Of a stretch of 16,585 nucleotides of DNA, positions 6 to 16,585 are shown piece by piece. The translations under genes and the position numbers were made by a program. Each line of letters starts with the position of its first letter. Positions within the stretch are counted from its first letter, which is position 1. Source of the DNA: Dentipellis sp. KUC8613 (taxonomy: Eukaryota > Basidiomycota > Agaricomycetes > Russulales > Hericiaceae); the NCBI GenBank assembly GCA_002286715.1, contig NSJX01000186.1, forward strand, positions 1 to 16,585. Reading direction: 5' to 3'. Under the pieces are notes generated by a model. It saw only the letters and a list, made by a program, of their open reading frames with translations, was not told where the DNA came from and made no database searches.

Positions 6-52
6 CTAGTTGGGAGTGGGCCGTCACAAGTGCGGCAGATCTGATTCAGCTA
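6..52 (-). other. 3' terminus of copy A: subterminal inverted repeat, hairpin, CTAG
   Basis: On the minus strand the order is the inverted 13-mer (52-40), then a hairpin with arms GCCG and CGGC (36-33 and 23-20) around a CAC/GTG inner pair, then ten bases, then CTAG (9-6). The same order and spacing occur at the 3' end of copy B, though the two elements share no other obvious sequence in their 3' tails. A stable hairpin 10-12 bases before CTRR is the family hallmark of Helitron 3' ends. Confidence 0.72.
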
Positions 53-171
53 GGGGAAAGCATTCACTTCCTTCAACTTGTAATGTTATTGGTCAGTTCT
101 TGATGCCAAGAGCTATGACTTTCATGTCACTTATGTTTCATGTTACATGTTATAGTAACATGCACAACACC
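53..171. other. AT-rich 3' tail of copy A, outer part
   Basis: This stretch of ordinary base composition lies between the conserved 3' terminus and the inserted MITE. It has no counterpart in the copy B tail (14314-14398). I see no gene, RNA or clear motif in it beyond the short inverted pair TGTTACATGTTATAGTAACA near 141-160. Confidence 0.5.
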
Positions 172-174
172 TGT

Positions 175-770
175 CACTGGGGGAAGGAACCAATTTCCGA
201 CCTGGGACATTGGGAGAACATAGCAAGGCCATGAACAATGTATCTATTATCTGTTATCAAGGAACATAATAGGAGCATAATCAATTTACAGTGATATTTT
301 TGTGTAATGTAGCCCAGCAGTAAATAGCCTTTGTACCGTGTGAGTACACATAGCACACATGGATAAGGCCATAGCCAATGGGCACATTGTGTGACCCCGA
401 AACCATGCTCGAGACATAGCCTATGTCCCAAGTGTGTTCCCTTTGTGTTATGACAATGTACACCCACATAGGTTATGCACGGAGCAACCGGGTGTGACAT
501 AAAGGGAACATGCTTGGGACATAGGCTATGTTCTGAGCATGGTTTTGGGGTCGCATGATGTGCCCATCGGCTCTGGCCTTATCCATGTGTGCTTTATGTA
601 CTTGCTCGGTACAAAGGCTATTTACTGCTGGGCTACATGACACAAAAATATTGCTGTAAATTGATTATGTTCCTATTATGTTCCTTGGTAACAAATGATA
701 GATACATTGTTCACAGCCTTGCTATGTTCTCCCAATGTCCCAGGTTGGAAATTGGTTCCTTCCCCCAGTG
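175..770. mobile_element. CACTA (EnSpm)-like foldback MITE with 276-base arms
   Basis: The element begins CACTGGGGGAAGGAACC at 175 and ends with its reverse complement at 770. The flanks carry a 3-bp direct repeat TGT (172-174 and 771-773). Left arm 175-450 and right arm 495-770 are inverted copies of equal length with scattered mismatches, separated by a 44-base loop. CACTA/CACTG tips with a 3-bp target duplication are the signature of the CACTA superfamily, so the assignment rests on tips and TSD. There is no transposase. It sits inside the 3' tail of copy A, so it inserted there later. Open frames on both strands (the shared peptide text around RYKGYLLLGY) are just the two arms read in opposite directions. 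A transcript would fold into a long imperfect hairpin, a plausible small-RNA source. Confidence 0.85.
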
Positions 771-773
771 TGT

Positions 774-860
774 TTATTGTTGACATCTCTAGAAGCTGTC
801 TGACTTTGATTATGAAAAGCAAGTCAGAGATTATTTTTTTATCTGGTTTCATCTGAATGT
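774..860. other. AT-rich 3' tail of copy A, inner part, with small hairpin
   Basis: This short AT-rich stretch joins the MITE to the 10-bp minisatellite. It contains an 8-bp stem TCTGACTT (799-806) and AAGTCAGA (821-828) with a 14-base loop, and a run of T at 833-840. No coding content is visible. Confidence 0.45.
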
Positions 861-910
861 CTATGAATTTCTATGAATTTCTATGAATTTCTATGAATTT
901 CTATGAATTT
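861..910 (+). repeat. 10-bp minisatellite (CTATGAATTT) x5
   Basis: Five exact tandem copies of CTATGAATTT are followed by a partial CTA, and a degenerate copy (ATCTGAATGT) precedes them. The block marks the edge between the AT-rich tail and the GC-rich array of copy A. The word TTTCTATGAAT also occurs singly in the 5' leaders of all three elements. Confidence 0.93.
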
Positions 911-3383
911 CTAAGGGATGACGGCAGTATGAAAGGGCACAAAGGGCGCAAACGGGCAGGAGACAGGGTGAAGGGGCACGACGGCGGCGTGAAGGGGCGC
1001 GAGAGCAGAGCGGCGTGAAGGGCGCGAGACGGTGCGAGAGGGTCGTGATGGTCGTCGCGACAAGCGGAGCAACGGCGACGCGACAAGCGGGGCGCAAGAC
1101 GGCGCGAGGGGGGCCGCAGCAACTGCGCGAGGGGGGTGCAAGACGGCGTGAGAGGGGCGCGGCGGCATCACGACGAGCGGGGCAACGGCGACGCAATGAG
1201 CAGGGCGACAACAATGCGACGAGGGGCACGGCGGCGACACGACGATGGTGGCGCGGCGACGGGGCGACAGGGGTGCGAGACGAGCAGAGAGGGGTGCAAC
1301 GAGGGGCGTGACGCCGGTGAGAGATGGCGTGAGGGGGGCACGAGACGGCGTGAAGGGGCACGAGGGGTGAGGGCGACGCGACGAGGGGCGCACCGGTGGC
1401 GCGAAGGGGCGCGAGAGCAGAGCGGCGTGCGGGGCGCGAGACGGCACGAGACCGGCGTGACGGCGACACGATGAGGGTGGCACAGTGACGGCGTGAGGTG
1501 GTGCGGCGACAGCGCGAGGGGGGAAACGACGGCGCGAGGGGGGAAACGACGGCGCGAGGGGGGAAACGACGGCGCAAAGGGGCGTGCGCAAGGGGCGCGA
1601 GACAGCACGAGAGGGCGCGTGAGAAGGGCAGCCAGGCGCAAGAGGGCGGCGTTGGGGCGCGAGAGGGCGGCGGTGAGTGTGCGGGAGCGTCCGACGGCGG
1701 CTGGGGGCTCGCGAGGGCGGCAGTGGACTAGCGAGGGCGGCGGTGGGGTGCACGAAAACGGCGGTGGGAGTGCGAGGATGGAGGTGGGCGCGAGTGCGCG
1801 AGCGAGAGGCGGGCGAGGGCAGCTGTGGTGGGAGAGGGTGAAGGAGGGTGTGGGGTGCGAGAGCGCGCGCGCGGGGCTCGAGGGCAGCTGAGGGCAGCTG
1901 TGGGGCTTGTGAGGGTGGCAGGGAGGGTGTGGGGTTGGAGGGCACAAACGAGAGCGGCCCGGGGTGCGTGAAGGTGGGCGTGAAGGCGGCAGTAGGGCGT
2001 GTGAGGGCGGCGGTGAGTGCGACGGTGCGCGAGGGCAATGGTTTGGCGCGCGAGGGCAGCGCTGGGGTGCGTGAGGGCGGCGTTGAGGGGCGCGAGGGCG
2101 GCGTTGGGGCGGTGTTGGGGTGCGAGAGGACGCGTGAGGGCGGCATGGAGCGTGCGGAGGCGGCGTGCGGCGGGCGGCGTGCAGAGGACGTCGACCGTGT
2201 GCGGAGGGCGCTGAGGGCGTGCGGAGGGCGCTGAGGGCGTGCGGAGGCGGCGTGCGGCATGTGGAGGCAGCGGAGTGCGCGCACATGGTGTCGACAGTGC
2301 AGGGCGGTCGGAGGCCACGGAGGCTGCAGTCGATGGCGCGTGGAGGCAGCAGACGGCGTGTGGAGGCCGCAAGCGGCGCGAGGACGGCGTGTCGAGGGCG
2401 CGTGTGGCAGGGAGAGAGCGTCTGGAGGCGGCGGAGGGTGCGCGGAGGGCGCGCGGAGGCGGCGAACGGCGTGTGGAGGCGGCGGACGGCGGATAGAGGC
2501 GGCGGAGGGTGCATGGAGGTGGCGGACGGCGTGTCGACAGCGCGTACGGCGCGTACGGCGCGTGAGGGCGGCGGAGACGGTGGCAGGCAGCGGCAGGCGG
2601 CGCGAGGAGGGTGGCGGAGATGGCGGCGGACGGCGTGGCGGAGGGCGCTGGGAGGGCGCGAATGGCCCAAAGAGGGCGCGGAGGGCGCAAGGAGGCCGCG
2701 TCGAGGGCGCGGACGGAGTGTCGAAGGCGGCGGTGGGCGAACGAGGGCGGGGAGGGCGGCGCGGAGGGTGCGTACGGCGCGGAGGGTGCACACAGCGCGT
2801 AGGGCGCGTAGAGTGCGTGGAGGGCGCGTAGAGTGCATGGAGGGCGCGTAGGGCGCGAGGAGGCAGTGTCGAGGGCGGGGAGGGCGCGTACGGCGCTTGG
2901 AGGGCGTGAGGAGACGGCGGAGAGAGCGGGGAGGGCACGTACGGTGCGTACGGCGCGAGGACGGTGCGAGGACGGCGCGAGGAGGCAGTGTCGAGGGCGT
3001 CGAGGGCGGTGGACGGCGCATGGAGGGCGTGAGGAGGCGGCAGAGAGGGTGTCGAACGCGGCGGTGGGCGAATGAGGGCGGCGGTGGGCGAACGAGGGCA
3101 ACGAGGAGGCGGCGGTGGTGCGTGCTGGGGCACGAGGAGGCGGCTGTGGGACCGCGTGGGGCGCGTCGACGGCGTGTACGGTGCGCGGAGGGCGCGAAGG
3201 GCGCGTGCAGGGCGCGAAGAGCGTGAGGAGGCCGGTTGGAGGGCTGCTGGGAGGGCGTGTTCGGCGCATTGGAGGGCGAGGGTGTGGCGCAGAGGAGGGC
3301 GAGAACGTGCGTGCAGAGGGGGAGCGTGAGCATGGAGGGCAAGGAACGGTGCGCGAGTGAGGGGTAGCGTAGACGGACAAAGG
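911..3383 (+). repeat. G-rich, CpG-dense degenerate array (3' arm of copy A)
   Basis: About 2.5 kb of loosely repeated words such as GGCGCGAGGGGG, GGCGTGAGGGG, GCGTACGGCG and GGAGGCGGCGGACGGCG, with very little T. Local periods of 9 and 20 bp appear, but no unit holds throughout. Read on the minus strand, which is the sense of copy A, it is C-rich. Positions 3249-3383, next to the module, are collinear with 11379-11513 of copy B; beyond that the arrays diverge. Open frames of up to 885 codons run through it on the minus strand and others overlap on plus. All translate to low-complexity R/P/A/S or R/G/A text, so I do not call genes here. Confidence 0.85.
1511..1570 (+). repeat. 20-bp tandem repeat x3 (GCGCGAGGGGGGAAACGACG type)
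   Basis: Three units of 20 bp start at 1511, 1531 and 1551, identical except the first base of the first unit. Each has a G6 run followed by AAACGACG. The next unit (1571 on) degenerates. This is the most regular block in the G-rich array. Confidence 0.92.
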
Positions 3384-3411
3384 ACGCGAGCCCGGGATCC
3401 CGGGCTTGCGT
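3384..3411. repeat. 28-bp palindrome at module edge (copy A, left)
   Basis: The perfect 18-bp core AGCCCGGGATCCCGGGCT (3389-3406) extends to 28 bp with one mismatched pair (G3388/T3407). It contains overlapping CCCGGG, GGATCC and CCCGGG. It sits exactly where array sequence gives way to module sequence. Confidence 0.92.
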
Positions 3412-3568
3412 GGTCAGTCAACGATGAGGACAGAGCGGTGGCGACGCACCTGAACTGCCTAGCTCTCCTCGACTTCTCTCCTGCCTGTTGAAAGAGGGCT
3501 TGTGTGGGTTGGGGGGGCGTGTTCACAAGGGGGTGTGGACTTGTGGGATGAGTCTGCAACGAGAACAA

Positions 3569-3612
3569 GCTTCGGCAATTACCGCGAGGGCTGACGCGGG
3601 AATTGCCGAAGC
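3569..3612. other. 44-base hairpin in module, copy A
   Basis: Two 18-base arms beginning GCTTCGGCAATT surround an 8-base loop. One mismatch (A3581 opposite G3600) distinguishes it from the perfect version in copy B. It lies near the module centre. It might be a cruciform, a structured RNA or a protein site; nothing here decides. Confidence 0.85.
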
Positions 3613-3816
3613 CAGCGCAGACGCGACTTCGTACTCTATTACAACGTGTCGCTCACTCTCGACATCAATGTACTTACCCTCCATACTCGCGCCACCGCAA
3701 CCGCCCATCCTCAACGTACACAACAGAAGCCTGCGTGCATTGATATCAGAAGATCTCGGAGAGGGATGGTGTCCAGGTATGTCGCTTTTGCTATGATTTT
3801 TACTCTTGACTGACCG

Positions 3817-3842
3817 CACGAGCCCGGGATCCCGGGCTTGCG
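3817..3842. repeat. Palindrome at module edge (copy A, right)
   Basis: The same 18-bp core (3821-3838) is perfect, and the outer arms are partly decayed by mismatches at 3820/3839 and 3818/3841. It is preceded by GACTGACC, the inverse of the motif inside the left edge. Confidence 0.9.
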
Positions 3843-3843
3843 T

Positions 3844-5266
3844 CCTTGTCGCCCTCCAGGTCCCGCCGTCGCCCTCCTCACCGCCGTTGCTCTCCATGAC
3901 CCACCATTGCTCTCCCCCTCCCACCATCATTCACTGCCTTCTTCCGCCGCCTCCACGCGCTGTATGCGCTCTCGACGCGCCGTCCGCGCCGTCGACGCGC
4001 CCTCTCTGCTGGCTCCTCACACCATCCACGCGCCCTACACGCCTTACGCGCCGTCGACGTGCCTTACGCGCCGTCGATGTGCCTTATGCGCCGTCGACGT
4101 GCCTTACGCGCCGTCGACGCGCCGTCGACGCCGCCTGCTTGCGCCCTACGCGCCCTATGCACCGTCAGCCGCCATCTCCATCATCTCCGCCGCCATCTCC
4201 ACCATCTCCGCCGCCTCCACGCGCTGTACGCGCCCTCGACGCGCCGTCCGTGCCCTCGATGCACCCTCTCCGCGCCCTCATCGTGCCCTACGCGCCGTCC
4301 GCCGCCCTCTTCGCCCCTCTCCGCCGCCTCCTCGCGCCCTCTCGCGCCCCAGCACGCCTCACCACTGTCTTCGCACGCCCACAGCCGCCTCGGAGCGCCC
4401 TCGCACGTCCACCGCCGCCCTCTCTCGCCACAGCATGCCCCACCACTGCCCTCACTCGCCCACTGCCGTCTTCGCACGCCCACAGCCGCCTGCTCGCGTT
4501 CTCGCTCGTGCCTGTACGCGGTGTCGTTGCCCTGTCCGCGGTGTCGTCGCCCCGTCTGCCGCCTCCGCACGCCGTTCGCTGCCTCCACACGCCGTCCGTC
4601 ACCTCCTCGCGCTATCCACGCGTCGCACGCGATCTCCATGCGCCGCACCTACCGTCCTCGCGGCCTCCAACCGCCGTCCTCGCCCCCTCCGCGCGCTTTA
4701 CACACCGTCCACATGCCCCACGCGCCCTCTTCGTGCCGCCCTCTCGTGCCCCCTCGCACCCCGTTGCGCCATGCTGCGCGCTGTGGCACCGTGTTGCGTC
4801 GCGCCGCGCCATCTAGACCGCTGCCTCGCTCCCCGTCCCTCCCCGTCGTGCCCTCTCATGCCCTCTGACGCCCCATGGCGCGCCCGCGTCGCACTCTTGC
4901 GCCACACCACGCTGTCTGCACCCGCACGCAGCCTCCTCCCGCCGTCTGACAGCTCCACCCACCATGTCAGCACCCATGTGCTGAGCTGCGTGCCAGCTCG
5001 CTGCCCCACACGCCCTCTCACTGGCGGCAGACCTGCGGTCTGGCGGCCCCACTGGGTGTGTCGCTGCCGCACACGCCCTAGCAATGGCGCAGGCAGCACG
5101 TCCTCTCGCTGTCCCACTCACCCTGTCACCTGTCTACCCATCTCCACCCACCGTTTTGTGCCGCGCGGGCCCTAGTAACGGCGTGGGCGGGACGCTCTCT
5201 CACTGCCCCACCCTTTAAAGTTGCCGCCAGCGCACCTCATTGTCACGCCGCATACCCTAGCAATGA
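3844..5266 (-). repeat. C-rich array (5' arm of copy A; G-rich on the element's sense strand)
   Basis: Degenerate words such as CGCGCCCTC, GCCGCCCTC and CGCCGTCGACGCG fill this segment, with almost no A runs. It is the opposite strand bias to the array left of the module. Positions 3844-3942 match 10807-10917 of copy B, and 4730-5266 match 9797-10335 of copy B, so the array edges are conserved while the middle differs in length and order. The outer part contains CCTAGCAA words at 5255, 5171 and 5079 (imperfect at 5171), spaced about 90 bp. Open frames through it (445 and 336 codons on plus) are low-complexity. Confidence 0.83.
4041..4120 (+). repeat. 20-bp tandem repeat x4 (GCCTTACGCGCCGTCGACGT)
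   Basis: Four units of exactly 20 bp start at 4041, 4061, 4081 and 4101, differing by single transitions (GTCGACGT/GTCGATGT, TTACGCG/TTATGCG). The differences are at CpG sites, as expected from methylcytosine decay. The period equals that of the unrelated block at 1511-1570. Confidence 0.93.
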
Positions 5267-5557
5267 CTGATTCACATGTCATGTCACGAAGGCTTTGAAA
5301 GTCCCAGTTTCAATCATGTAGACTACATACATTCATAGAAATTTAAATTTCTTTTTTTACACAACCAAATGTTCTACCTGAGTCAAAAAATCATTGAAGA
5401 ATCATTATAGAAGTCTGCTCAGCTATGAATTTGAAGTCACAGCCAGTGTTTGACGCGTCAAAAAGACCGTGGGAATTCATTTCCTGTTTGTATGATTAAA
5501 AGTGGACGATGCGACCTGCGAGTGTGTCTAATTAAAAGTGATTCATGGCTGAATCAG
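5267..5557 (-). other. AT-rich 5' leader of copy A
   Basis: About 291 bp bounded by CTGATTC (5267-5273) and GAATCAG (5551-5557). It is nearly identical to 9505-9796 of copy B and clearly related to 14451-14745 of copy C. It holds a 16-bp perfect palindrome AGAAATTTAAATTTCT (5337-5352), the near-palindrome ATGTAG-A-CTACAT (5316-5328), and the 14-bp perfect palindrome TTTGACGCGTCAAA (5449-5462). It is the most conserved part of the family, so it probably carries the 5' recognition sequence. No plausible gene lies in it. Confidence 0.8.
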
Positions 5558-5558
5558 A

Positions 5559-5690
5559 AAGCTCCCGAAGAACCGCACCTACAAGCCGAGCCGGACGCAT
5601 GTAGGAGGAAGGAGCTCGAGGGGCAGAGCAACGCGAAGTCACGATAGGTAAGTTTCTTTTTGCTCTCTTTGTGTTTCTGCCGTCTTGCCC
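5559..5690. other. Mixed-composition stretch flanking the 5' end of copy A
   Basis: This is non-repetitive sequence outside the element. It contains an ideal splice-donor-like string ATAGGTAAGTTT (GT at 5648-5649) followed by a T/C-rich run. A short open frame upstream ends at 5647, but it starts inside the transposon leader, so I do not call it. It could be the edge of an old exon or chance. Confidence 0.35.
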
Positions 5691-8600
5691 CGCCCCGCTC
5701 CACTCGTCCGCCCCGCAAATGATATCACCACTTCGCCTGCCCCAGCAACGGCGTAACATCGCCGACCTGCATGCCCGCAGGATCGTTCTCGCCACCTCGC
5801 CCTCGCTCTCGCTCTCGCCGCCCTGCTCGCCCCTACGTCGCCTCGTACGCGTTCTCACTGCCCCGCACGCCCCGTAACCGCCCTCCTTGCCGTCCCCGCG
5901 CCCTGCCCGCATTAGCGACGGTGCTGGACGCGCGCTCTACGCCGTTTCGCTACCCCGTGCGCCGTCGCGTCGCTCTGCACGCCCACGCTCCGCCATGTAC
6001 GTCCTCTCGGCACCTCCAACACCTTCGCACCGACCCGTAACCGCCCCATGCGCCGTCGCTGCGCCCAGCCCGCCTTAGCAACAGCGGACGATGCGGGCTG
6101 TACCCCTCTGCGCCTCAAATGTCTTCGCAGCGCCTTCCAACCGCCCCGTGCGCCCCTCTCGACGCCGTGTCCCCGCGTCTCCCCCGACGCCTTCTCGCTG
6201 TCCCTCGCGGTCTTGCGCGGTCCAAAGCCCTCAGCCACTATCTCACATCCTCGCTCGCCCTCTTTCACAGCCCCAAGCCTCTTTGCAACATCGTGAAAGG
6301 CACGAGACGTCTCGCACCACCAGCACACCGCCCTGCCGCATCTCTCGTAGCCCCGCGCTGCATGTCATTACCCTGCGCGTCGTCTCGCCGCCTCCGGTCC
6401 CATAGCCATGCCGTCTTGCAGCCCCGCGCCCCACCCTTTTCTGCCTAACACCGCACCCTCCATGTCCTCACGCGCCCTCTCTCCGCCGTTCGCGCCCTCG
6501 CGCCACTATCGTGCACCCCGCACCGCCACCGTGCGTCCCGCACCGCCATCGCGCGCCCTCGTCGCGCCGCCATCACGCCCCTGGCAGCCGTCGGCACGCA
6601 CCTGGTGGCCGCTGTCGCGCCACTTGCGCAGCCATCACCACCCATCTCGCGGTCCCTTCGTGCCCCGCGCCACGTCGCACACTCTCAATGCCCGCCGCGC
6701 CCTCTTCGCGCCCCGCCCCGCCGTCTGCGCACCCCACCTTGCCGTCTGTGTGCCCCGCCCCATCGTCTGCGCGACGCGCCATGCCCACTCGTGCACCGAC
6801 ATGCCATCGCGCACTGCTGCCACGCGCCTTTGCACAGCCCTCACGTGCCGTCGCTCGCCGCCCTCACGCGTTCTCGGCCCCTCGCTTTGCTGTCGCGCGC
6901 AGTTTCGCCCACGCTCGTGCACACTCTCTTCGAGCGCGCCTCCGCAGCCCCCGCATCACCCCCATATTGCCGCACCACCACAGCACGGCCACTTCGCGCC
7001 TGTGCGCGCCCGTTTGCGCCCGTGCGCCCCTATTTTTCGCTCACGCGCGACCGTTTCGCGTGCCCCCGCACCACCCCCATATCATGCACTGCCGCAGCAA
7101 GGCTGTTTCACGCCCGCGCGCTGCGGTCATGCACCTCAGCGGCACCGTCTCGCGCCCCAGCGCCGCTGTCGCGCCTCAATGCCGCCTTCACGCAACGGTG
7201 CGCGACCTCCCTCTGCCCCCAGGGGCCCTCGCTCGCCGCCCTGACGCACCGAAATGCCGCCCTCATGCATCCAAGTGCCGCAATTGTGTCCCCTCGCGCC
7301 GCCCTCTAGACCCTTCATGCCGCCGTCTCACTGTCTTGCCGTCAATCACCCTCACTCCTCCGCCACGCGCCGTCGCGCCGTCATCGTGCGGCCCGTGCCG
7401 TCATCGTGCGCCCTCGCGCCTCGATTGTGCGCCCCCACGCTGCCGTCACCCGCCCTCGCGCCGCCCTCGCTCGCCGCCCTCCCGCACCACAGCGCCTGCC
7501 CTCGCGCCACCGCCACGCGTCGTCACGCGTTGTCACGCGCCCTCCCTTGCCACTCTCGCACTGCCGTCAGGCGCCATCGCGCTGTCATCACGAGCCGTCG
7601 TGCCCCCTCACTCGCCACCACCCGCCATCACCGCGCTCTGGCTCCCCATGGCGCTGCATTGCGCCCCGCCACGCCCTCGTGGCCCCCACGCGACCCTCCC
7701 GCTCCTTGTCATGTCACCGGGCCACGCGCTTGCGCCACACCACGCAGTCTGGATCCCCGTCTCGCTCGGTGCACCACGCCGTGCGTTCTCAGCCGCGCCA
7801 CGCCGTCTTCGCGCCTCGTAGAGCTGTCTCCCGCCACGTCTCGCCTCCTGCGCGCTTTCTGCGCGTTCTCAGCCGCTCCGTCTCGTTCTCTGGTCACCAC
7901 GCCGCGCGTTCTCGGCCCAGCCCAGCCGTCTTTGCGCCACCACGCCCTCTCTAGTGGATTCTCATCCGTGCTGCGCCCTTTGGACGCCCCACCGCACTCT
8001 CTGTGCATATCATCTCACTCGATGCACCACTCGGCGCATGCTCAGCCGCGCCACGCCCTCTTCGCGCCCCGTGGGGCCATCTCGCGCGCTGAGGTGCCGT
8101 TTGCGAGCCACACTGCGCCCTCTTCATGCCTCGTCGGGTCGTCTCATGCCCCGCCCCGCCATCTGCCTGTCCCGCCCCTCCATCTCGCTCACCCCGCCGT
8201 GTCGTTCACCCCGCCGTGTCGCTCGCTGCATCGCCACGCGCCTGCCACGCGCCGCCAGCCCGCCGTCACTCGCCGCAGCGCCGCCATTCCATAGGCAGGG
8301 GCCCCGCGCCGCCGTCTCAGCCACCGTCGCGCATCCTCGTGAGTCACACAACGCCCTGCACCCCAGCGACGCCACTTCACCGCTCTCCCGAAGGCGTCTC
8401 GGGCCTCTGGCGCCCGAATGACGCGCCCTGCGCCCTAGCAACGGCCCCTCGCGCCCTCTGGCACCCCACCTCCGCCGCTCCACAGCTCTCCGACAAGTCT
8501 TGGGCATCTGGCGCCCCATCAATATGTCCCGCGCCTCACCGATGTACCCCGTGCCCCGCCAACGTCACACGCAACGGCCCCCAGCACGCTAGCGATGATA

Positions 8601-9503
8601 CGCTACACCGACGCCGCTTCACACACTCGCCCCGCCGGCATGCCCCGCCGCCGCCGTCTGGACGCCCCCTGCCGCCCCTCCCGCCGTCGTCTTCCGCCCC
8701 CCGCCGCCGTATTCGACCCTCCGCTGCGCCGTCTGCACCCCGCCGCCCTTTCTTTGGGCCCCAGCGCCGCCGTCGTCTCCCGCCCCCTGCCGCACCCCCG
8801 CTGACCCCCGCTGCCGTCGCTCACCACGCGCCGTACCCCGCCCCCGCTCGCCGCACGCCCCCTGCGCCGTCGCTCGCACGCCCCCTGTGCCGTCGCCTCG
8901 CCCTGCCCGCCTTAGCAATGGGCGTAGGGCATGCACACGGCGCATGACACACATTCCAAGCCCACGCGCGGCCGTTTTGGGACCGTACGTCCCCGTTCCG
9001 CACCCCAGTGCCCGCGCCGCCCTCTCTGTCCTCTCCCGCACCTGCACCGCCCTCGCGTGGCGCTGCCCCATGCCTTCTTGTGCACCATAGCGTGCACTCT
9101 CGCTTGCTGTCGCCCGCCTGCTCGCGCGCCGTCTGTCGTGCACTGCCTTACGCTGCGCGCCCCCATTTTGCTCCGTCATGCCCGCACCGTCCGCGCACTC
9201 GCTCTGTCGCCCCGCGCCCCCTTGCGCTGCCGTCACCTGCCTTGCCGTCGCGCCCTAGTGACGCCCTCTGGCGCCGCATCGACACCCTCTATTTGTGCCA
9301 ACTCGTGTCCACTCCCCCTTCGCCCCTTTAGCCTATCGCTGTCTTGTGCCCTCATCGCACCCCCATGCTTCTTTGCCCTGCCGTCGCGTGTCCCAGCGGC
9401 GCCGACGCCCCCCCACGGCGCCTTCATGTGCCGTCGCGTGGCCCTATCTCGTGCCGATGGTGCTGTGTTGCACCTCACAATGCCGTGTTGAGCCCCTTGC
9501 TGT
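5691..9503. repeat. C-rich degenerate array between the 5' ends of copies A and B
   Basis: About 3.8 kb is C-rich on plus throughout, with words such as CGCCCTCGCGCC, CCCCGCGCC and CACCGCCGCCCTC, and no G-rich partner or central module. A motif related to CCTAGCAACGGCG recurs irregularly (near 5742, 5908, 6078, 8440, 8588, 8911 and 9250). The same motif marks the ~90-bp repeats at the 5' ends of A and B, which suggests common origin. It runs to the base before copy B. Open frames here (up to 436 codons) are overlapping low-complexity shadows. It may be host satellite-like DNA or the remnant of another element. Confidence 0.72.
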
Positions 9504-9504
9504 T

Positions 9505-9796
9505 CTGATTCAGCCATGAATCACTTTTAATTAGACACACTCGCAGGTCGCGTCGTCCACTTTTAATCGTATAAACAGGAAATGAATTCCCACGGTCTTT
9601 TTGACGCGTCAAACACTGGCTGTGACTTCAAATTAATAGCTGAGCAGACTTCTTCAATGATTCTTCAATGATTCTTTTGACTCAAGTAGAACATTTGGTT
9701 GTGTAAAAAAAGAAATTTAAATTTCTATGAATGTATGTAGTCTACATGATTGAAACTGGGACTTTCAAAGCCTTCGTGAGATGACATGAGAATCAG
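9505..9796 (+). other. AT-rich 5' leader of copy B
   Basis: 292 bp bounded by CTGATTC and GAATCAG, nearly identical to the leader of copy A. Palindromes AGAAATTTAAATTTCT (9711-9726), ATGTAG-T-CTACAT (9735-9747) and TTTGACGCGTCAAA (9600-9613) are all retained. A tandem TTCAATGATTC pair lies near 9652-9673. Composition changes sharply to GC-rich directly after it. Confidence 0.82.
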
Positions 9797-10917
9797 TCAT
9801 TGCTAGGGTACGCAGCGCGACAACGAGGTGCGCTAGCGGCAACTTTAAAGGGTGGGGCGGCGAGAGAGCGTGCCGCCCACGCCGTTGCTAGGGCCCGCGC
9901 GGCACGAAACGGTGGGTGGAGATGGGTAGACAGGCGAAAGAGTGAGTGGGACGGCGAGAGGGTGTGCCGCCTGCGCCATTGCTAGGGCGTGCGCGGCAGC
10001 GACACACCCAGTGGGGCCGCCAGACCGCAGGTCTGCCGCCAGTGAGAGGGCGTGTGGGGCAGCGAGCTGGCACGCAGCTCAGCACATGGGTGCTGACATG
10101 GTGGGTGGAGCTGTCAGACGGCGGGAGGAGGCTGCGCGCGGGTGCAGACAGCGTGGTGTGGCGCAAGAGTGCGACGCGGGCGCGCCACGGGGCGTCAGAG
10201 GGCGTCAGAGGGCGCGACGGGGAGTGACGGGGAGCGAGGCAGCGGTCTAGACGGCGCGTCGCGGCGCAACACGGTGCCATAGCGCGCAACATGGCGCAAC
10301 GGGGCGCGAGAGGGCACGAGAGGGTGGCACGCGGTACAGCGGGGGTCCAGACGATGTGGTGTGGTGCATGAGCGCAGCGAGGCAATGTCGCGCTGCACGA
10401 GGGGGTCGCCAGGGGACCGAGAGGGCATGACGGGGGTCCGGACGGCGCGCGACGGCCGCACGGGGCGCGTGACGGCGGAGTGACGGCGCGTAGTGAGCGG
10501 GCGCGAGGCGATACAGCGCGGGCGGCATGACGCGAGGCGGCGCAGACGGCACGAAATGACATGGAGGGGGTGAAAGGGAAAGGCGCACGAGAGGGACAGC
10601 GCGCAGACGGTGAGCACACGCAAAAGGGGAGGCGGACGGGCAGGAACGAGGGTGCGCGAGGTAGAACCGCACGCGTGAGACGGTGCGGACGGTGCGAGAT
10701 GACACCATGGCCGCGGCCTGATGGTGAGACGGGCGCGAGAGATTGAGAAGGAGGGAGCACAAACGGCGAGTGCGCGCGAGACCGAGGGCGGAGCATATGA
10801 CGTATGAGAAGGCAGTGAATGATGGTGGGAGGTGGAGAGCGATGGTGGGTCATGGAGACAATGGCGGTGAGGAGGGCGATGGCGGGACCTGGAGGATACA
10901 GGACAAGGGCGACAAGG
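9797..10917 (+). repeat. G-rich array (5' arm of copy B)
   Basis: G-rich, CpG-dense array. Its first part, to about 10335, is collinear with copy A and contains TGCTAGGG at 9801, 9886 and 9980, a loose ~90-bp unit that includes GCGAGAGGGCGTG-like words. The middle differs from copy A in length. The last ~110 bp (10807-10917) match A again, apart from a 13-base insertion near 10890-10905. A CTTTAAAG palindrome near 9843 is also shared with A. No credible coding sequence: the minus-strand frames are low-complexity. Confidence 0.82.
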
Positions 10918-10918
10918 A

Positions 10919-10944
10919 CGCAAGCCCGGGATCCCGGGCTCGCG
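10919..10944. repeat. Palindrome at module edge (copy B, left)
   Basis: The perfect 18-bp core AGCCCGGGATCCCGGGCT (10923-10940) has outer arms with one mismatch (A10922/C10941). It marks the switch from G-rich array to module. Confidence 0.92.
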
Positions 10945-11142
10945 CGGTCAGTCGAAAGTAAAAATCATAGCAAAAGCGACACACCTAGACACCATCCCTC
11001 TCCGAGATCTTCTGAGATCAATGCATGCAGGCTTCTGTTGTGTACGTTGAGGATGAGCGGTTGCGGTGGCGCGAGTATGGAGGGTAAGTACGTTGATGTC
11101 GAGAGTGAGCGACGCGTTAGAGCACAAGTCGCGTCTGCGCTG

Positions 11143-11186
11143 GCTTCGGCAATTCCCGCGTCAGCCCTCGCGGGAATTGCCGAAGC
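11143..11186. other. Perfect 44-base hairpin in module, copy B
   Basis: Arms GCTTCGGCAATTCCCGCG and its exact reverse complement (18 bp) surround the loop TCAGCCCT. This is the strongest short stem in the window. The same structure with one mismatch is at 3569-3612, and only one arm survives in copy C (15435-15448). Confidence 0.92.
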
Positions 11187-11350
11187 TTGTTCTCGATGCA
11201 GACTCATCCCACAAGTCTGCACCCCACCGCCCCTTGTGAACACGCCCCCCCAAACCACACAAGCCCTCTTTCAACAGGCAGGAGAGAAGTCGAGGAGAGC
11301 TAGGCAGTTCAGGTGCGTTGCCACCGCTCTGACCTCATCATTGACTGACC

Positions 11351-11378
11351 ACGCGAGCCCGGGATCCCGGGCTCGCGT
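11351..11378. repeat. Perfect 28-bp palindrome at module edge (copy B, right)
   Basis: Every one of the 14 base pairs matches, centred on GGGATCCC. It is the best preserved of the five full copies in the window and begins directly after GACTGACC. Confidence 0.95.
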
Positions 11379-12651
11379 CCTTTGTCCGTCTACGCTACCC
11401 CTCACTCACGCACCGTTCCTCGCCCTCCACGCTCACCCTCCCCCTCTGCACGCACGTTCTCGCCCTCCTCTGCGCCACATCCTCGCCCTCCAATGCGCCG
11501 AACACGCCCTCCCGTGCATCATTGCCCCCTCTCGTGCGGCATCACGCCCTACACGCCCTGTCCGCGGCCTCCACATGCCGCACGCGCTCTCCTCACGCAC
11601 TTCACGCCCTCCACGCGCCCTTCGCGCCCTCCGCGCACTGTACACGCTGTCGACGCGCCGCACGCGGTCCCGTTGCCGCCCTCTCGCGCCGCAGCACACC
11701 TCACCACCGTCTTCGCCGTCCACACTCGCTCACCGCCGCCTCCTTGCACCCTCGCTCGTCTATCGCCACCCTCACTCGCTTGTCGCAGCCCTCACTTGCC
11801 CGCCGTCATCCTCGCCCGCACCATCGCCACCCTCACGTGCCCATCGCCGTGCCCGCATGTTCCATTGCCGTCTTCGCTAGTCCACCGCTGCCCTCGCTCG
11901 TCCACCGCCGTCCTCGCGTGCCGCGCGCCGCCCTCTCTCGCGCTCTCGCGCTCCGCTGCTCTCTGCAGCCGTCCTCTCTGCCCTCTCGCCTCCACCACCG
12001 CCTTCTCGCGCCCCCCGCCCTCTCTCACGCACTCTCGCGCCCCACAGCCTCCCTCCCTCGCGCTCTCGACCCACGCGCGCTCCCTCGCATCCACCACCGC
12101 CCTCACATGCCCCACCGCCGCCATCACGCGCCCCATGCCGCGTTCGCTCGCGCCCTCGAACCTGCGCGCCCCTCCATACGCACTGCCGCATTCACGCATC
12201 CCGGGCCGCCCTCGCTCACGTTCTCTCGTGCCCCACAGCCGCCCTCTCCGCCCGCTGCCGCCCTCACATGCCCCACAGCCGCGTTCACGCACCCGGGCCG
12301 CCCTCGTTCGGGCCTTTGAGCCGCGCACACGCTCCTTCGCGCTCCACAGCTTCCCTCCCTCCCGCTCTCGATCCCTGTGCGCCCCCACGGTCCCGCCGCC
12401 ACCCTCACACGCACCACAGCCGCCTTCACACGCCTCCGGCTGCCTTCGCTCGTGCCCTCAAGCCGCACGCGTGCTCCCTCGCGCCCCATATCCGCCCGCC
12501 CTCTCCGCCCGCTGCCGCCCTCACATGCCCGCCGCCGCCCTCACACACTCCACAGCCGCCTTCACGTACCCCCGCCGTCCTCTCTCATGCCCCCGCCGCC
12601 CTTGCGCCACTCTCGGGTACCCCCGTGCCGCACCTCCGTCGCCCGAGCCGA

Positions 12652-12790
12652 ATGCACGACGAAGACGCACAAGCGCGATGGCACGACGAGGGTGCGAGGG
12701 CGCACACGGGCCGACGAGGGCGTGAGGGCGTGACAACGCGACAAAGAGGGCGCGAAGAGGGCGCGGTGATGAGGGTGCGACAAGAGCGGT
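12652..12790 (+). repeat. Strand-flipped G-rich block inside the C-rich array
   Basis: From ATGCACGACGAAGACGCAC onward the plus strand becomes purine-rich (GACGAGGGTGCGAGGGCGC and similar words) for about 140 bp, then returns to C-rich at 12791. It resembles the opposite-arm array in reverse strand sense, so a local inversion or capture of opposite-arm sequence is likely. Confidence 0.7.
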
Positions 12791-13170
12791 TCGCGCCGTC
12801 CCTGCCTTCTCTGCGCCATTCACGCGCCGTATGAACGCTCCACGCACCGTACGTGCCCTCTGCTGCCCTGTCTGCCCTATCCGCATTCTACACCGCCTCT
12901 TCGCGCCTATGCGCACCGTCGGCCACTCTCTCCGCCCTCGTCCGCCTCCTCACGCCCTCTCTGCCCTCCACGCGCCGTACGCGCCGTACACCGCCCTCTC
13001 ATCCCTCTCCGCCGCCTCTACGCGTCGTCCGCTGCCCTCTCCGCCCTCTCCACCCTCTCCGCCACCTCCACGCACCCTACGCGCCGTCCGCGCCCTCTCC
13101 GACACCTTGCGCCCTCCACGTGGCGTACGCGCTGTTGACGCGCCGCACGCGGTCCCGTTGCCGCCCTATC

Positions 13171-13424
13171 GCGCCCCAGTGCGCTTCACCGCCGTCTTCG
13201 CGCGCCCACAGCCACCTCCTCGTGCCCCAGCACGCACCGCCATCGTCCTCGCGCCCCTACGCGTCTCACCGCTGCCCTTTCGTGCGTCAGCGCGTCCCAC
13301 CACCCTCGCCGCCCTCGCCCACCCACCACCGCCCTCTCACGCCCCGCCGCCGCCCCGCGCCCCAGCGCATCCCACCGCCATCTTTGCGCGCCCAAAGCCA
13401 CCTCCTCGTGCCCCAGCACGCACT
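13171..13424 (+). repeat. Higher-order direct repeat, spacing ~186 bp
   Basis: The block around GCCACCTCCTCGTGCCCCAG, with its upstream CGCGCCCCAG..CACCGCC.TCTT.GCGCGCCCA, appears at 13171-13238 and again at 13357-13424 with a few substitutions. The spacing is far longer than the short array words, so it records a segmental duplication. Confidence 0.78.
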
Positions 13425-14313
13425 CACCACCGCCCTCGCTTGCCCCAACGTCGCCTATTCGTGTCCCAACGCCGCCGTCTCGCACCCTCTGCCGCCCTCT
13501 GCTGCCTTCTCGCAGCCCACGGCCGCCCTTGCATGCCCTCCGCCTCCCTCACACGCCCTCCCTCACATGCCCTCGCTCACCCACCGCCGCCCTCGCTCAC
13601 CCACCACTGTCCGCTGCCGTCAGTCACTGTCTGCCGCCCTCCGTCGCCGTCTGCTGTCGTCTGTGGCCCTCTGCCACCCTCTGCTGCATTCTCGCTCACC
13701 CACCGCTGCCCTCGCTCGCCCACCACCCTCCGCCGCCCTGTCGTACCGTTCGCCACTCTCGCGCGTCCTCCTGCCTCTACTGCCGCCCTCGCACGCCTCC
13801 GCGCCCGGCACCTCCTGCAGTCGGTCGCTGCTGCCCGCCATCTTGCTGCCCTCGCGCGCCCTCGCTCCGTCGCCACGCACCCCGCGCCACCGATATGCGC
13901 CTTCGCCTCGCCGTCGTGCCCCTCGCTCTCCGCCACCCGCCGTCGTTGATGTTTGCGGCCTCCGCCGTACGCACTGTCCACGCGCCACACGCGCTCTCCA
14001 CGCGCCACACGCGTCCTCCAGCCGCCCTGCGCCGCCCTGTGCGCACTCTCCATGCGCCCTCTGCGCCCTCCACACGCCCTCTGCGCACCACACGCGCCGT
14101 ACAGGCCGTCGACGCGCCACACGCACCCTCCTTGTGCCCTCCGCGCGCCGTACACGCCGTCGACGCGCCACACGCGCAGTCTTCGCGCCCTTTGCGGCCT
14201 CCAACCGCCCCACTCGCGCCCTTTGCCGCCTCCGCTGGCCGTACACGCCCTCCCCGCGCCATAGACGCCGTCAACGCGCCGCACGCGTCGTCTTTGCGGC
14301 GTCTGCGGCCTCT

Positions 14314-14398
14314 TAATATTCCTCCTCTACATCCATGACAGTTGGATATATTATGAAATTAAGAATTTATTAATATTTGCTGAATGAAATAACCCCCC
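14314..14398 (+). other. AT-rich 3' tail of copy B
   Basis: A short AT-rich stretch (ATATTATGAAATTAAGAATT) follows the array abruptly and leads into the conserved terminus. It shares no obvious sequence with the copy A tail. No gene or motif is seen. Confidence 0.6.
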
Positions 14399-14446
14399 TG
14401 GCTGAATCAGACCCTGCCGCACATGTGACGGCCCACTCCCAACTAG
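14399..14446 (+). other. 3' terminus of copy B: subterminal inverted repeat, hairpin, CTAG
   Basis: TGGCTGAATCAGA (14399-14411) is the exact reverse complement of the element's first 13 bases. It is followed by a hairpin GCCG-CACATGTG-A-CGGC (14416-14432), the ten bases CCACTCCCAA, and CTAG (14443-14446). The match with the minus-strand end of copy A at 6-52 fixes the 3' boundary. Confidence 0.78.
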
Positions 14447-14450
14447 TATT

Positions 14451-14745
14451 CTGATTCAGCCATGAATCACTTTTAATTAGACACACTCGCAGGTCGCGTC
14501 GTCCACTTTTAATCGTACAAACAGGAAATGAGTTCCCACGGCCTTTTTGACATGTCGAACACTGGCCGTGACTTCAAATTCATAGCTGAGCAGACTATAA
14601 TAATGATTCTTCAATGAATCTTTTGACTCAGATAGAGCATTCAATCATGCAGGTATGTGTAGAAAACAAAGTTAGATTTCTATGAATATATGTATTTTAC
14701 ATGGTGAAAACTGGGTCCTTCGATGTGACATGAGACAAGAATCAG
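14451..14745 (+). other. AT-rich 5' leader of copy C
   Basis: 295 bp bounded by CTGATTC and GAATCAG (14739-14745). It aligns along its length with the A and B leaders, but TTTGACGCGTCAAA has become TTTGACATGTCGAA (14546-14559) and the AGAAATTTAAATTTCT palindrome is lost. Beyond GAATCAG the sequence differs from A and B. Confidence 0.75.
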
Positions 14746-15199
14746 CACCACACAGGTGGCGGTGGGCGCGAGATGGTGCGCGAGGGTGGCGCTGGAGTGC
14801 GCAAGGGTGGCGATGGGGCGCGGGAGGGCAGTGGTCGGCGCGGGAGGACGCGCAGGGGCACAGAGCGGCGTCGTTGGTGACTGAGATGGCGCGCGAGGGC
14901 GGCCGTGGGGCGCGTGAGGGTGGTCGTGAGGCGCGATAGGGCGGCATTGGGGCCCGCGAGGGCTGCTGTGGGCGCAAGATGGTGCCCGAGGGTGGCGCTG
15001 GGCGTGCGATGGCGTGCGAGGGCGGCTGTGCAGCGCACAAGGGCGGCCATGGGGCGCGTGAGGGCAGCGATGGGGACGCGCGCGAGCGCAGAGCAGTGTC
15101 GTTGGGGGTCGAAATGGCAGAGAGGATGGTGCTGGGGCACGAGGCGGCGGTGACGGCGTTGCTGGCGAGCAAGATGTAGATGGGGACCTGTGATGAGGT
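14746..15199 (+). repeat. G-rich array (5' arm of copy C)
   Basis: A short (about 450 bp) G-rich array with words such as GGTGGCGCTGGGGTGCG, GCGCGAGGGCGGC and GGGGCGCGTGAGGGC. It starts immediately after the leader and ends at the module palindrome. No coding sequence is supported. Confidence 0.78.
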
Positions 15200-15227
15200 G
15201 CGCGAGCCCGGGATACCGGGCTCGCGC
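15200..15227. repeat. 28-bp palindrome at module edge (copy C, left)
   Basis: This is the same palindrome as in A and B, but one base of the centre is changed (GGGATACC instead of GGGATCCC). The other pairs match out to 14 per arm. Confidence 0.88.
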
Positions 15228-15388
15228 GGTCAGTACTGCTATGGGAATATTGAGGGTGTGCAACGACACACCTGCATACCTCACATTCCCACTTCCTTTC
15301 CTTGCTGAGACAACGAGTATGTGTGTGATGATAGATCGAGGACGAAAGTTGGAAGACAATCGGGGGATGGGACATGACAGTGTTTGAG

Positions 15389-15408
15389 AAGTCGCATTGA
15401 AGCGACTT
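15389..15408. other. Small hairpin AAGTCGC-ATTGAA-GCGACTT
   Basis: A 7-bp stem with a 6-base loop, located where the AAGTCGC word of the B module (11126 region) lies. It is found only in copy C. Confidence 0.6.
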
Positions 15409-15877
15409 GTCGTCTCCTGTCACGCGCGTCCCACCTCGGCAATTCCCGAGTGCTGCTTGTCAATGCATCCCTCTCGCACCCACCGTCTCCCTCTCACACC
15501 CACCACCGCCGCCCGTTCGTGTCCCAACACCGCCGTCTCGCACCCGCTGCCGCCCTCGCGTGCCCCACCACGACCCTCGCACGCCCCACGGTCGCCCTTG
15601 CGTGCCGTTTCGCGCTTTCGCGCCCCATAGCCGCCCTTGCCATGCGCGCGTCACCGCCTCCCTCTCGCACCTACCGCTGCCCTCTCACACCCACCCCGCG
15701 CCGCTATCGCTTGCGCCCTCTAGCCCAGCGCGCTCCCTCTCGTGCCCACCACCACCATCGCACGCCGCACAGACTGGCGGGAGAGAAGCAGAAAGAGGAA
15801 CAGTACCAGTGAGTACTAGTGAAATACAGGTGCGTCACCGCCGCTCTTATCTTACCATAGACTGACTGCGCGAGCCC

Positions 15878-16585
15878 CCCGCTGTCTGCCGTACCACGTA
15901 CGCGCTGTTCGTGCGGCCGGCGTCCGGTACGCGCCCCCTGCGTCCTCTACGCGTCCCCTGCCACCTCCCTCGCCCACCACCGCCCTCGTCCGCCCGTCGG
16001 TGCCCTGTCTCGCTCCAGCACGCCCCACCGCCGCCCTCGTTCGCCCACCGCCGCCCTCTCCGCCCCTCCGCCCCCTCCTCGCGCCCTACGCGCCCCCGAC
16101 ACACCCTACACGCTGTCGACACGCTGTCCGCGCCGTCAACGTGCCCTCTCCGCCCTCTCCACCACCTCGACGCGCTGTACGCGCCCTCGACGCGCCCTCT
16201 ACACCCTCTCGGCCCCCTCCTCGCGCCCCATGCGCCATCCGTCGCCCTCTTGCGCCCCAGCGCTTCCCGCCGCTGCCGTCTCTCGCCCCAGCAAGCGCCG
16301 CCGTGGTTCACGCTCACCCACAGCCGCCTGCTCGTGCCCACAGCCGCCCACAGCCGCCCTCTCGTCCCTCCACCGCCCTCGCCGTCCGCGCCGCGTCCGC
16401 CGCCTCCACGTGCCCTACGGGCTCTTTGCCGCCCTCCGCGCCCTCCGCGCCCTCTGCGCCCTCCACGCACCCTCCACCGCCCTCCACGCGCCCGCCGCCG
16501 CCCTCCACGCGCTGTATGCGCCCGCCGGCGGCCTCTCCGCGGTCTCTGCACGCCGTACGCGCCCTCTTGGGGCCGTACGCACTGT
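15878..16585 (+). repeat. C-rich array (3' arm of copy C, runs off the window)
   Basis: C-rich degenerate repeats with CGCGCCCTC and CACCGCCGCCCTC words continue to the window end. The right side of the module thus shows the same strand bias as in copy B. No gene is supported; minus-strand frames (234 codons and shorter) are R/G-rich low-complexity. Confidence 0.8.
16431..16466 (+). repeat. 9-bp tandem repeat x4 (GCCCTCCGC)
   Basis: Four adjacent 9-bp units start at 16431, 16440, 16449 and 16458, with single substitutions in the last two. A period divisible by three keeps reading frames open and helps explain the long spurious frames in these arrays. Confidence 0.85.

Follow-up and report, generated by a model that had tools for sequence, protein, structure and literature searches.

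Strand-composition flip in Helitron-like elements of Dentipellis sp. KUC8613, probably composites of two back-to-back units

The elements examined here, three of which lie in a stretch of 16,585 nucleotides (nt) from the basidiomycete Dentipellis sp. KUC8613 (positions 1–16585 of contig NSJX01000186.1, C73 in our numbering; "the window"), have their closest described relatives among Helitron-type transposons. The comparisons below draw on parts of the respective reports. Non-autonomous Helentrons of the HINE/DINE-1 type share with our elements a palindromic subterminal 5′ inverted repeat with a partner ca 38–60 nt before the 3′ end, T-rich insertion without target duplication and, in some copies, tandem repeats (PMC4067079), whereas the present elements add kilobases of strand-biased 10/20-nt repeats after a donor-like site, in some cases as two head-to-head units. 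Cg_HINE of the Pacific oyster is also of Helentron type, with tandem arrays whose orientation is fixed relative to the flanks, but its monomers are 140–180 bp long, its arrays are short, and the part of the report used here notes no inverted second array (PMC7492417). FoHeli, a Helitron2-like element of Fusarium oxysporum, resembles ours in its TC start, hairpins, asymmetric terminal inverted repeats and T-side insertion, and composites by self-insertion have been proposed for it; its end sequences are different (FoHeli1/2 end ATTTT), and no long arrays are noted in the excerpt consulted (PMC5148889). HELPO1 and HELPO2 of Pleurotus ostreatus are fungal RepHel elements with a T[C/G] start and a CT[A/T]G 3′ end, they make no target duplication, and the RepHel genes of two subfamilies have introns. 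They differ in their A-T insertion, and the word "tandem" does not occur in that text (PMC4289320).

In the present work, we examine why the strand composition flips along these elements, in which two repeat arrays flank a short module. The genome comprises 34.1 Mb in 171 contigs. With the module of element 1 as query, at least 83 matching pieces were found across it, and 20 stretches around the better module copies were examined (L009–L028). We find that the strand flip is real in the window and is not family-wide. The elements that flip are probably composites of two Helitron subfamilies, brought together by inverted nesting or fusion and later amplified as a unit: the strand bias would flip because two units, each consisting of a leader and a C-rich array, sit back to back. 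A pattern resembling an origin or a foldback is in this way explained by two oriented transposon units, and array polarity can be used as an orientation marker when fragments are annotated. A literature search found no work linking Helitrons with GC skew and inverted repeats, or linking them in fungi with subtelomeres, tandem repeats and CTAG, although we do not claim that arrays of this kind have never been described. The elements and their parts lie as follows.

6–5558, − strand: element 1, a complete composite of Helitron type; 5′ end at 5558, 3′ CTAG end at 6, both ends matched
3844–5263, − strand: 5′ array of element 1; C-rich on the + strand of the window, G-rich in the sense of the element
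3384–3843, − strand: module of element 1; a head-to-head pair of leader halves, with the edge palindromes at 3390 and 3822
912–3383, − strand: 3′ array of element 1; C-rich in the sense of the element
9504–14446, + strand: element 2, a complete composite, both ends matched
9801–10917, + strand: 5′ array of element 2; G-rich
10918–11378, + strand: module of element 2; central hairpin at ca 11143–11186
11379–14312, + strand: 3′ array of element 2; C-rich, bias weak or reversed near 12640–12790
14450–16585, + strand: element 3, a composite cut by the window end; 5′ end motif, left palindrome at 15206
15200–15880, + strand: module of element 3; inverted leader, C-rich array of ca 330 nt, second leader end with a degenerate palindrome

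In 300-nt windows, element 1 has a GC skew between +0.33 and +0.54 on the left side of the module and between −0.25 and −0.46 on the right side, and element 2 shows the same change of sign across its module. The centred cumulative G−C curve has a range of 563, 469 and 226 for elements 1, 2 and 3, compared to maxima of 143, 128 and 78 among 1000 shuffles per element. A three-segment fit on a 4-nt grid places the switches at 3447/3815, 10948/11348 and 15230/15414, respectively, while the single turning points are found at 3605, 11122 and 15402. The fitted switches of elements 1 and 2 are within ca 65 nt of the module edges and about at the edge palindromes; the G-rich array stops, and the C-rich array starts, at these two palindromes, and the turning points 3605 and 11122 either fall within the central hairpin, at the junction of the two module halves, or miss it by ca 20 nt. 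In element 3, the left switch is near the left palindrome, and the C-rich part starts inside the module, ca 460 nt before 15877, which had been taken as the right edge. The original prediction, that composition flips exactly at the module edges in all three elements, is thus confirmed by skew, fit and shuffles for elements 1 and 2, and for element 3 at the left edge only.

Three smaller features of these elements can be mentioned here. A short stretch within the 3′ array of element 2 (12640–12790) has a weak or reversed bias, as if a piece of the array were inverted. Elements 2 and 3 form a head-to-tail pair, element 3 beginning 3 nt beyond the CTAG that closes element 2 (14443–14451). The 3′ tail of element 1 contains a 0.6-kb foldback, with 274-nt arms that are 90% complementary (175–770).

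Full-length relatives with a single strand bias throughout had been named in advance as a refutation of the prediction, and such relatives exist. Only three of the nine full-length elements found go from G-rich to C-rich (elements 1 and 2 and L011:1861–6433), whereas the other six have a single C-rich array and no flip (two at L018 and one each at L021, L025, L027 and L028). A single array is present also in the window, where positions 5700–9480 are C-rich throughout and hold no palindrome module.

5559–5648, + strand: terminal part of another leader, cut short by element 1; closes with AG/GTAAGT at 5648; 24 genome matches including its own
5690–9503, + strand: C-rich array after that leader end; uniform bias, no palindrome; element 2 begins at the array end

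The basic unit begins with a 5′ end and a leader of ca 650 nt that closes with AG/GTRNGT and, in most types, the palindrome CCCGGGATCCCGGG. The leader is followed by kilobases of degenerate ca 10/20-nt repeats, whose C-rich strand is the one that reads outward from it, and then by a tail and the 3′ end. The leaders that were compared run from the 5′ end through ca 600–650 nt to the donor-like site and then over ca 45 nt to the palindrome, after which comes the C-rich array. The polarity of the unit was evaluated at 32 edge palindromes with at most one mismatch, taken from the window and L009–L028. They were oriented independently of the skew, by means of the TTGACTGACC motif that lies towards the leader, with a narrow margin at L017:936 (4 vs 5 mismatches) and L013:9169 (3 vs 5). 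The outward 500 nt are C-rich at all 32, with skews of −0.16 to −0.50. At 29 of them, a donor-like G/GTRNGT (or GTRCAT or GTRCAG) lies 44–50 nt before the palindrome core, and at the remaining three (L010:4690, L011:1508 and L027:4893) the donor-like site is one letter off. AGGTRNGT is absent from both strands of 2882 nt of upstream parts from five leaders. The window has seven array starts with one donor-like site each, all pointing into the C-rich direction; those of the three elements are listed here.

3449, − strand: AG/GTGCGT, element 1, points left
3777, + strand: AG/GTATGT, element 1, points right
10984, − strand: AG/GTGTGT, element 2, points left
11313, + strand: AG/GTGCGT, element 2, points right
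15271, − strand: AG/GTGTGT, element 3, points left
15830, + strand: AG/GTGCGT, element 3, points right

Words of the AGGTRNGT form occur at two other places in the window, 6601 (− strand) and 14653 (+ strand). The earlier statement that outward RNA would be C-rich on both sides of the module holds for elements 1–3, each module half having its own outward donor-like site.

These results bear on the possibility that the skew stems from replication or transcription, i.e. that the module is an origin or a divergent transcription unit and that mutation bias drives the two sides apart. The sign change at a defined centre is what such a scenario would give, and an origin-like skew had indeed been suggested. 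However, the single-array elements show the same bias and no switch, the array at 5690–9503 is biased without any module, and the bias tracks the donor-like site, inverted units included. We therefore consider this explanation the least probable of those discussed here, with next to no chance of being correct.

Concerning the origin of the module halves, six composites (elements 1 and 2, L009, L010, L011 and L014) have a B-type leader in inverted orientation as their left half. This half matches B_L013 at 79–84% over 258–286 nt, and the match ends at B_L013 positions 418–448. In elements 1, 2 and L010, the right half comes from a leader of A/C/D type in direct orientation, with best A/C matches of 79–83% over 127–145 nt; in L009 the right half is visible but cut by the contig end. 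In element 3, a different inverted leader runs straight into an array, and the second leader end comes after it. Of each leader of ca 650–700 nt, the module retains only the last ca 210–285 nt, and at the 5′ end of the composites only the first ca 90 nt are common with the single-unit A elements. The arrays were compared by their 6-mers, with four B arrays and five A/C/D arrays as references. The 5′ arrays are nearer to the B arrays in four of five composites, and the 3′ arrays are nearer to the A/C/D arrays in all five. Between composites, the 5′ arrays of elements 1 and 2 match over 469 nt at 95%, and the 3′ arrays of element 1 and L010 over 664 nt at 84%. The three complete composites have different flanks, which shows that the fused form has moved.

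The composites are arranged as follows. Behind the first ca 90 nt of an A-type element lies a B-type leader with its array, in inverted orientation and usually head to head with a second leader. The A-type leader remnant and its array come next, such that both arrays point outward from one centre, where the composition flips. We infer that the inversion came from one Helitron inserting into another in the opposite orientation, with loss of the inner ends, as has been proposed for Fusarium Helitrons (PMC5148889). The main alternative would be template switching at the shared inverted word CGGGAATTGCCGAAGC, which is predicted to form a strong hairpin in element 2 (z −9.1). The arrays are presumably transcribed as C-rich leader or intron sequence.

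Another option is that the module is a working divergent promoter, and that selection maintains the flip because C-rich outward RNAs are useful or G-rich RNA is harmful. This could explain why the donor-like site and the palindrome are kept in each leader half of elements 1, 2 and L010, and also the constant polarity at all 32 palindromes. Against it, the module retains only the leader ends and may thus lack promoter parts that lay further upstream; moreover, just one leader, an inverted one, is present in L011 and in L014, and most full-length relatives have no flip. Judged from the DNA itself, a promoter of this kind appears unlikely.

The possibility that the elements are true foldbacks, or transposons with long terminal inverted repeats, was considered as well. 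Here, the arrays would be the arms of an inverted duplication and the module the loop. The two arms do have opposite composition, and in element 1 the 5′ and 3′ arrays match each other over 708 nt at 68%. The arrays also resemble the 10/20/31-bp repeat ladder of the Drosophila foldback (FB) elements, which, unlike the elements here, have long terminal inverted repeats. To compare the arms, the first 680 nt were scored against 30 block shuffles each in five composites (element 3 and L009, both cut, were excluded). The scores of L011, L010 and L014 are 38, 38 and 39, compared to shuffle maxima of 54, 57 and 49, and those of elements 2 and 1 are only just above the maxima (53 vs 47 and 148 vs 146). 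Moreover, the 5′ array of element 1 scores 144, 132, 124 and 91 against the 3′ arrays of the other composites, so its value of 148 indicates no special kinship between its two arms. An FB-like foldback transposon was accordingly rejected as a candidate, as the arms in these five composites do not amount to long inverted copies. A second arm is lacking in six of the nine full-length relatives, and the elements terminate in a Helitron-like 5′ end and a different, Helitron-like 3′ end rather than in long inverted repeats. A foldback origin is thus very improbable, and the giant foldback with the module at its apex, as in the original prediction, finds no support here. The related claim that the arrays are loose reverse complements holds for composition; in alignment, it fails in three of the five composites and is barely supported in elements 1 and 2. 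Similarly, of the suggested inverted-duplication seed, the head-to-head arrangement of two leader halves stands, while the halves belong to different subfamilies and the arms are not mutual duplicates.

The ends of the elements support a Helitron-type identity. The 3′ tails were collected with a pattern that made no demand for CTAG, and 19 of 19 rows end in CTAG with a T after it; two later tails end CTAG and CTTG. The nine full-length elements start with TCTGATTCA after a T and end with CTAG before a T. In this case the pattern required TCTGATTCA, and with it the TC start seen in all nine, as well as CTAGT or CTTGT, so that only the T before the 5′ end (9/9) is independent. The subterminal palindromic 5′ repeat CTGATTCA..TGAATCA is predicted to form a hairpin (z −5.2), and its inverted partner TGAATCAG lies ca 40–45 nt before the end in the 3′ tails. 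The joined flanks of one L018 element match C7:21411–21649 over 240/240 nt at 96%, with the junction spanned by 38 of 42 rows. Filled sites have a T on either side, as a TT target would give, but in the two empty sites aligned, C7 and C50, there is just a single T. For this one element there is no target duplication beyond one T.

As to the protein, RepHel (PF14214) is found at 12 places in the genome. Two RepHel frames were scanned, and DUF6570 and Helitron_like_N are present in both and PIF1 in one (L038); no endonuclease domain was found in these two frames, both of which are cut by other elements. The cuts are made by ends of the present family (L037 7943–7984; L038 2697–2716 and 7436–7442), and it is through these inserted ends, and through an array that precedes one of the frames, that ends and protein are linked. 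Among the 120 of 409 matches listed, the RepHel relatives include Peniophora sp. and Athelia sp., both Agaricomycetes. The elements look like non-autonomous Helitron-type rolling-circle transposons, built in the style of Helentron, Helitron2 and HINE, and we infer that the RepHel of this genome moves their ends.

It is important to note that a number of observations weigh against a composite of two Helitron units. In L011 and L014, the inverted leader runs straight into the array and there is no second leader. The ca 200 nt between the 5′ end and the inverted array (ca 9595–9800 in element 2) match only other composites among the fetched loci, and the 5′ array of element 1 is by its 6-mers nearer to the A/C/D than to the B arrays. 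The elements are flanked by T, before the 5′ end and after CTAG, whereas canonical Helitrons insert between A and T. The 3′ hairpin is a short predicted stem (z −0.67), and 44 of 200 shuffles fold as well. With the joined flanks of L021 as query, only its own two flanks were matched and no empty site was found. Finally, an intact autonomous element that combines both ends with a RepHel gene was not seen, the frames of L037 and L038 being cut.

The arrays themselves have a regular pitch. The period was determined for 22 hand-cut arrays, seven from the window and 15 from 12 loci (L010, L011, L013, L014, L018–L021, L024, L025, L027 and L037); the set does not include the L026 array or the 5′ array of L014. 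In all 22, the strongest period between 5 and 16 nt is 10.04–10.36 nt, that is, about one turn of DNA. It exceeds all 40 shuffles in 21 of them, the exception being positions 5700–9480 of the window, and on a coarser grid 15 of the 22 are above 100 shuffles. The autocorrelation peaks at 20, 31, 40–42, 51, 60–62, 71, 80–82, 91, 102, 111–113 and ca 122 nt, and the period is carried by both the strong/weak and the purine/pyrimidine classes. Units of 9+11 = 20 nt with extra 11-nt steps give the same period, and selection on the helix is therefore only one reading of it. The helical-turn pitch is the part that would surprise a specialist, and it is left unexplained by the composite origin. Since arrays of different subfamilies share it, one can test whether selection, or the growth of the repeats, acts on DNA turns or nucleosomes in a rolling-circle transposon.

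A coding role for the arrays is not favoured by their sequence. On the C-rich strand of 16 arrays, stops are depleted in three (z ≤ −2) and in excess in three (z ≥ +2), and a period-3 signal, although present, is weaker than the ca 10-nt signal in every row. An intron-like role is suggested by one locus, L037, where a C-rich array is located directly upstream of a RepHel frame (2315–7978) on the same strand. GTAAGT at 161 starts this array, and TACTAAC at 2164 and TTCTAG at 2185 come after it, which is the layout of a large intron; the contig begins 160 nt before the donor. Two more short intron-like stretches (GTAAGT..CTCTAG and GTGAGT..TGCAG) follow the array ahead of the RepHel frame (161–2480).

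Tentatively, the arrays might thus be giant C-rich introns or 5′ leaders of Helitron genes that are held in helix register, with gene loss giving the leader-plus-array elements and inverted nesting giving the flip; we regard this as possible, though clearly short of probable. Gain and loss of units in ca 10.2-nt steps would hold kilobases of rapidly changing repeat to one helix face or nucleosome phase, and the RNA would stay C-rich. The bias may exist because C-rich RNA avoids R-loops and G-quadruplexes. It is also possible that a short intron ends at the AG of the palindrome. The tails of L011 and L025 have GGTAAGT just after the array, a word that a plain one-intron reading does not predict.

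Regarding the location of these elements, contigs begin or end within members of the family at the end of L009 and at the starts of L023 and L037. Since contigs break inside the elements in this way, closeness to a contig end is no proof of a subtelomeric place, and some of the short contigs appear to have arisen where the assembly broke at the repeats. A pattern search of the loci examined gave no telomere-like repeats, and Rfam at gathering scores gave no match in the window; a separate search with the Rfam model RF00002 was likewise without a match. At the start of L011, the first bases resemble, by eye, a reverse transcriptase frame of Copia type.

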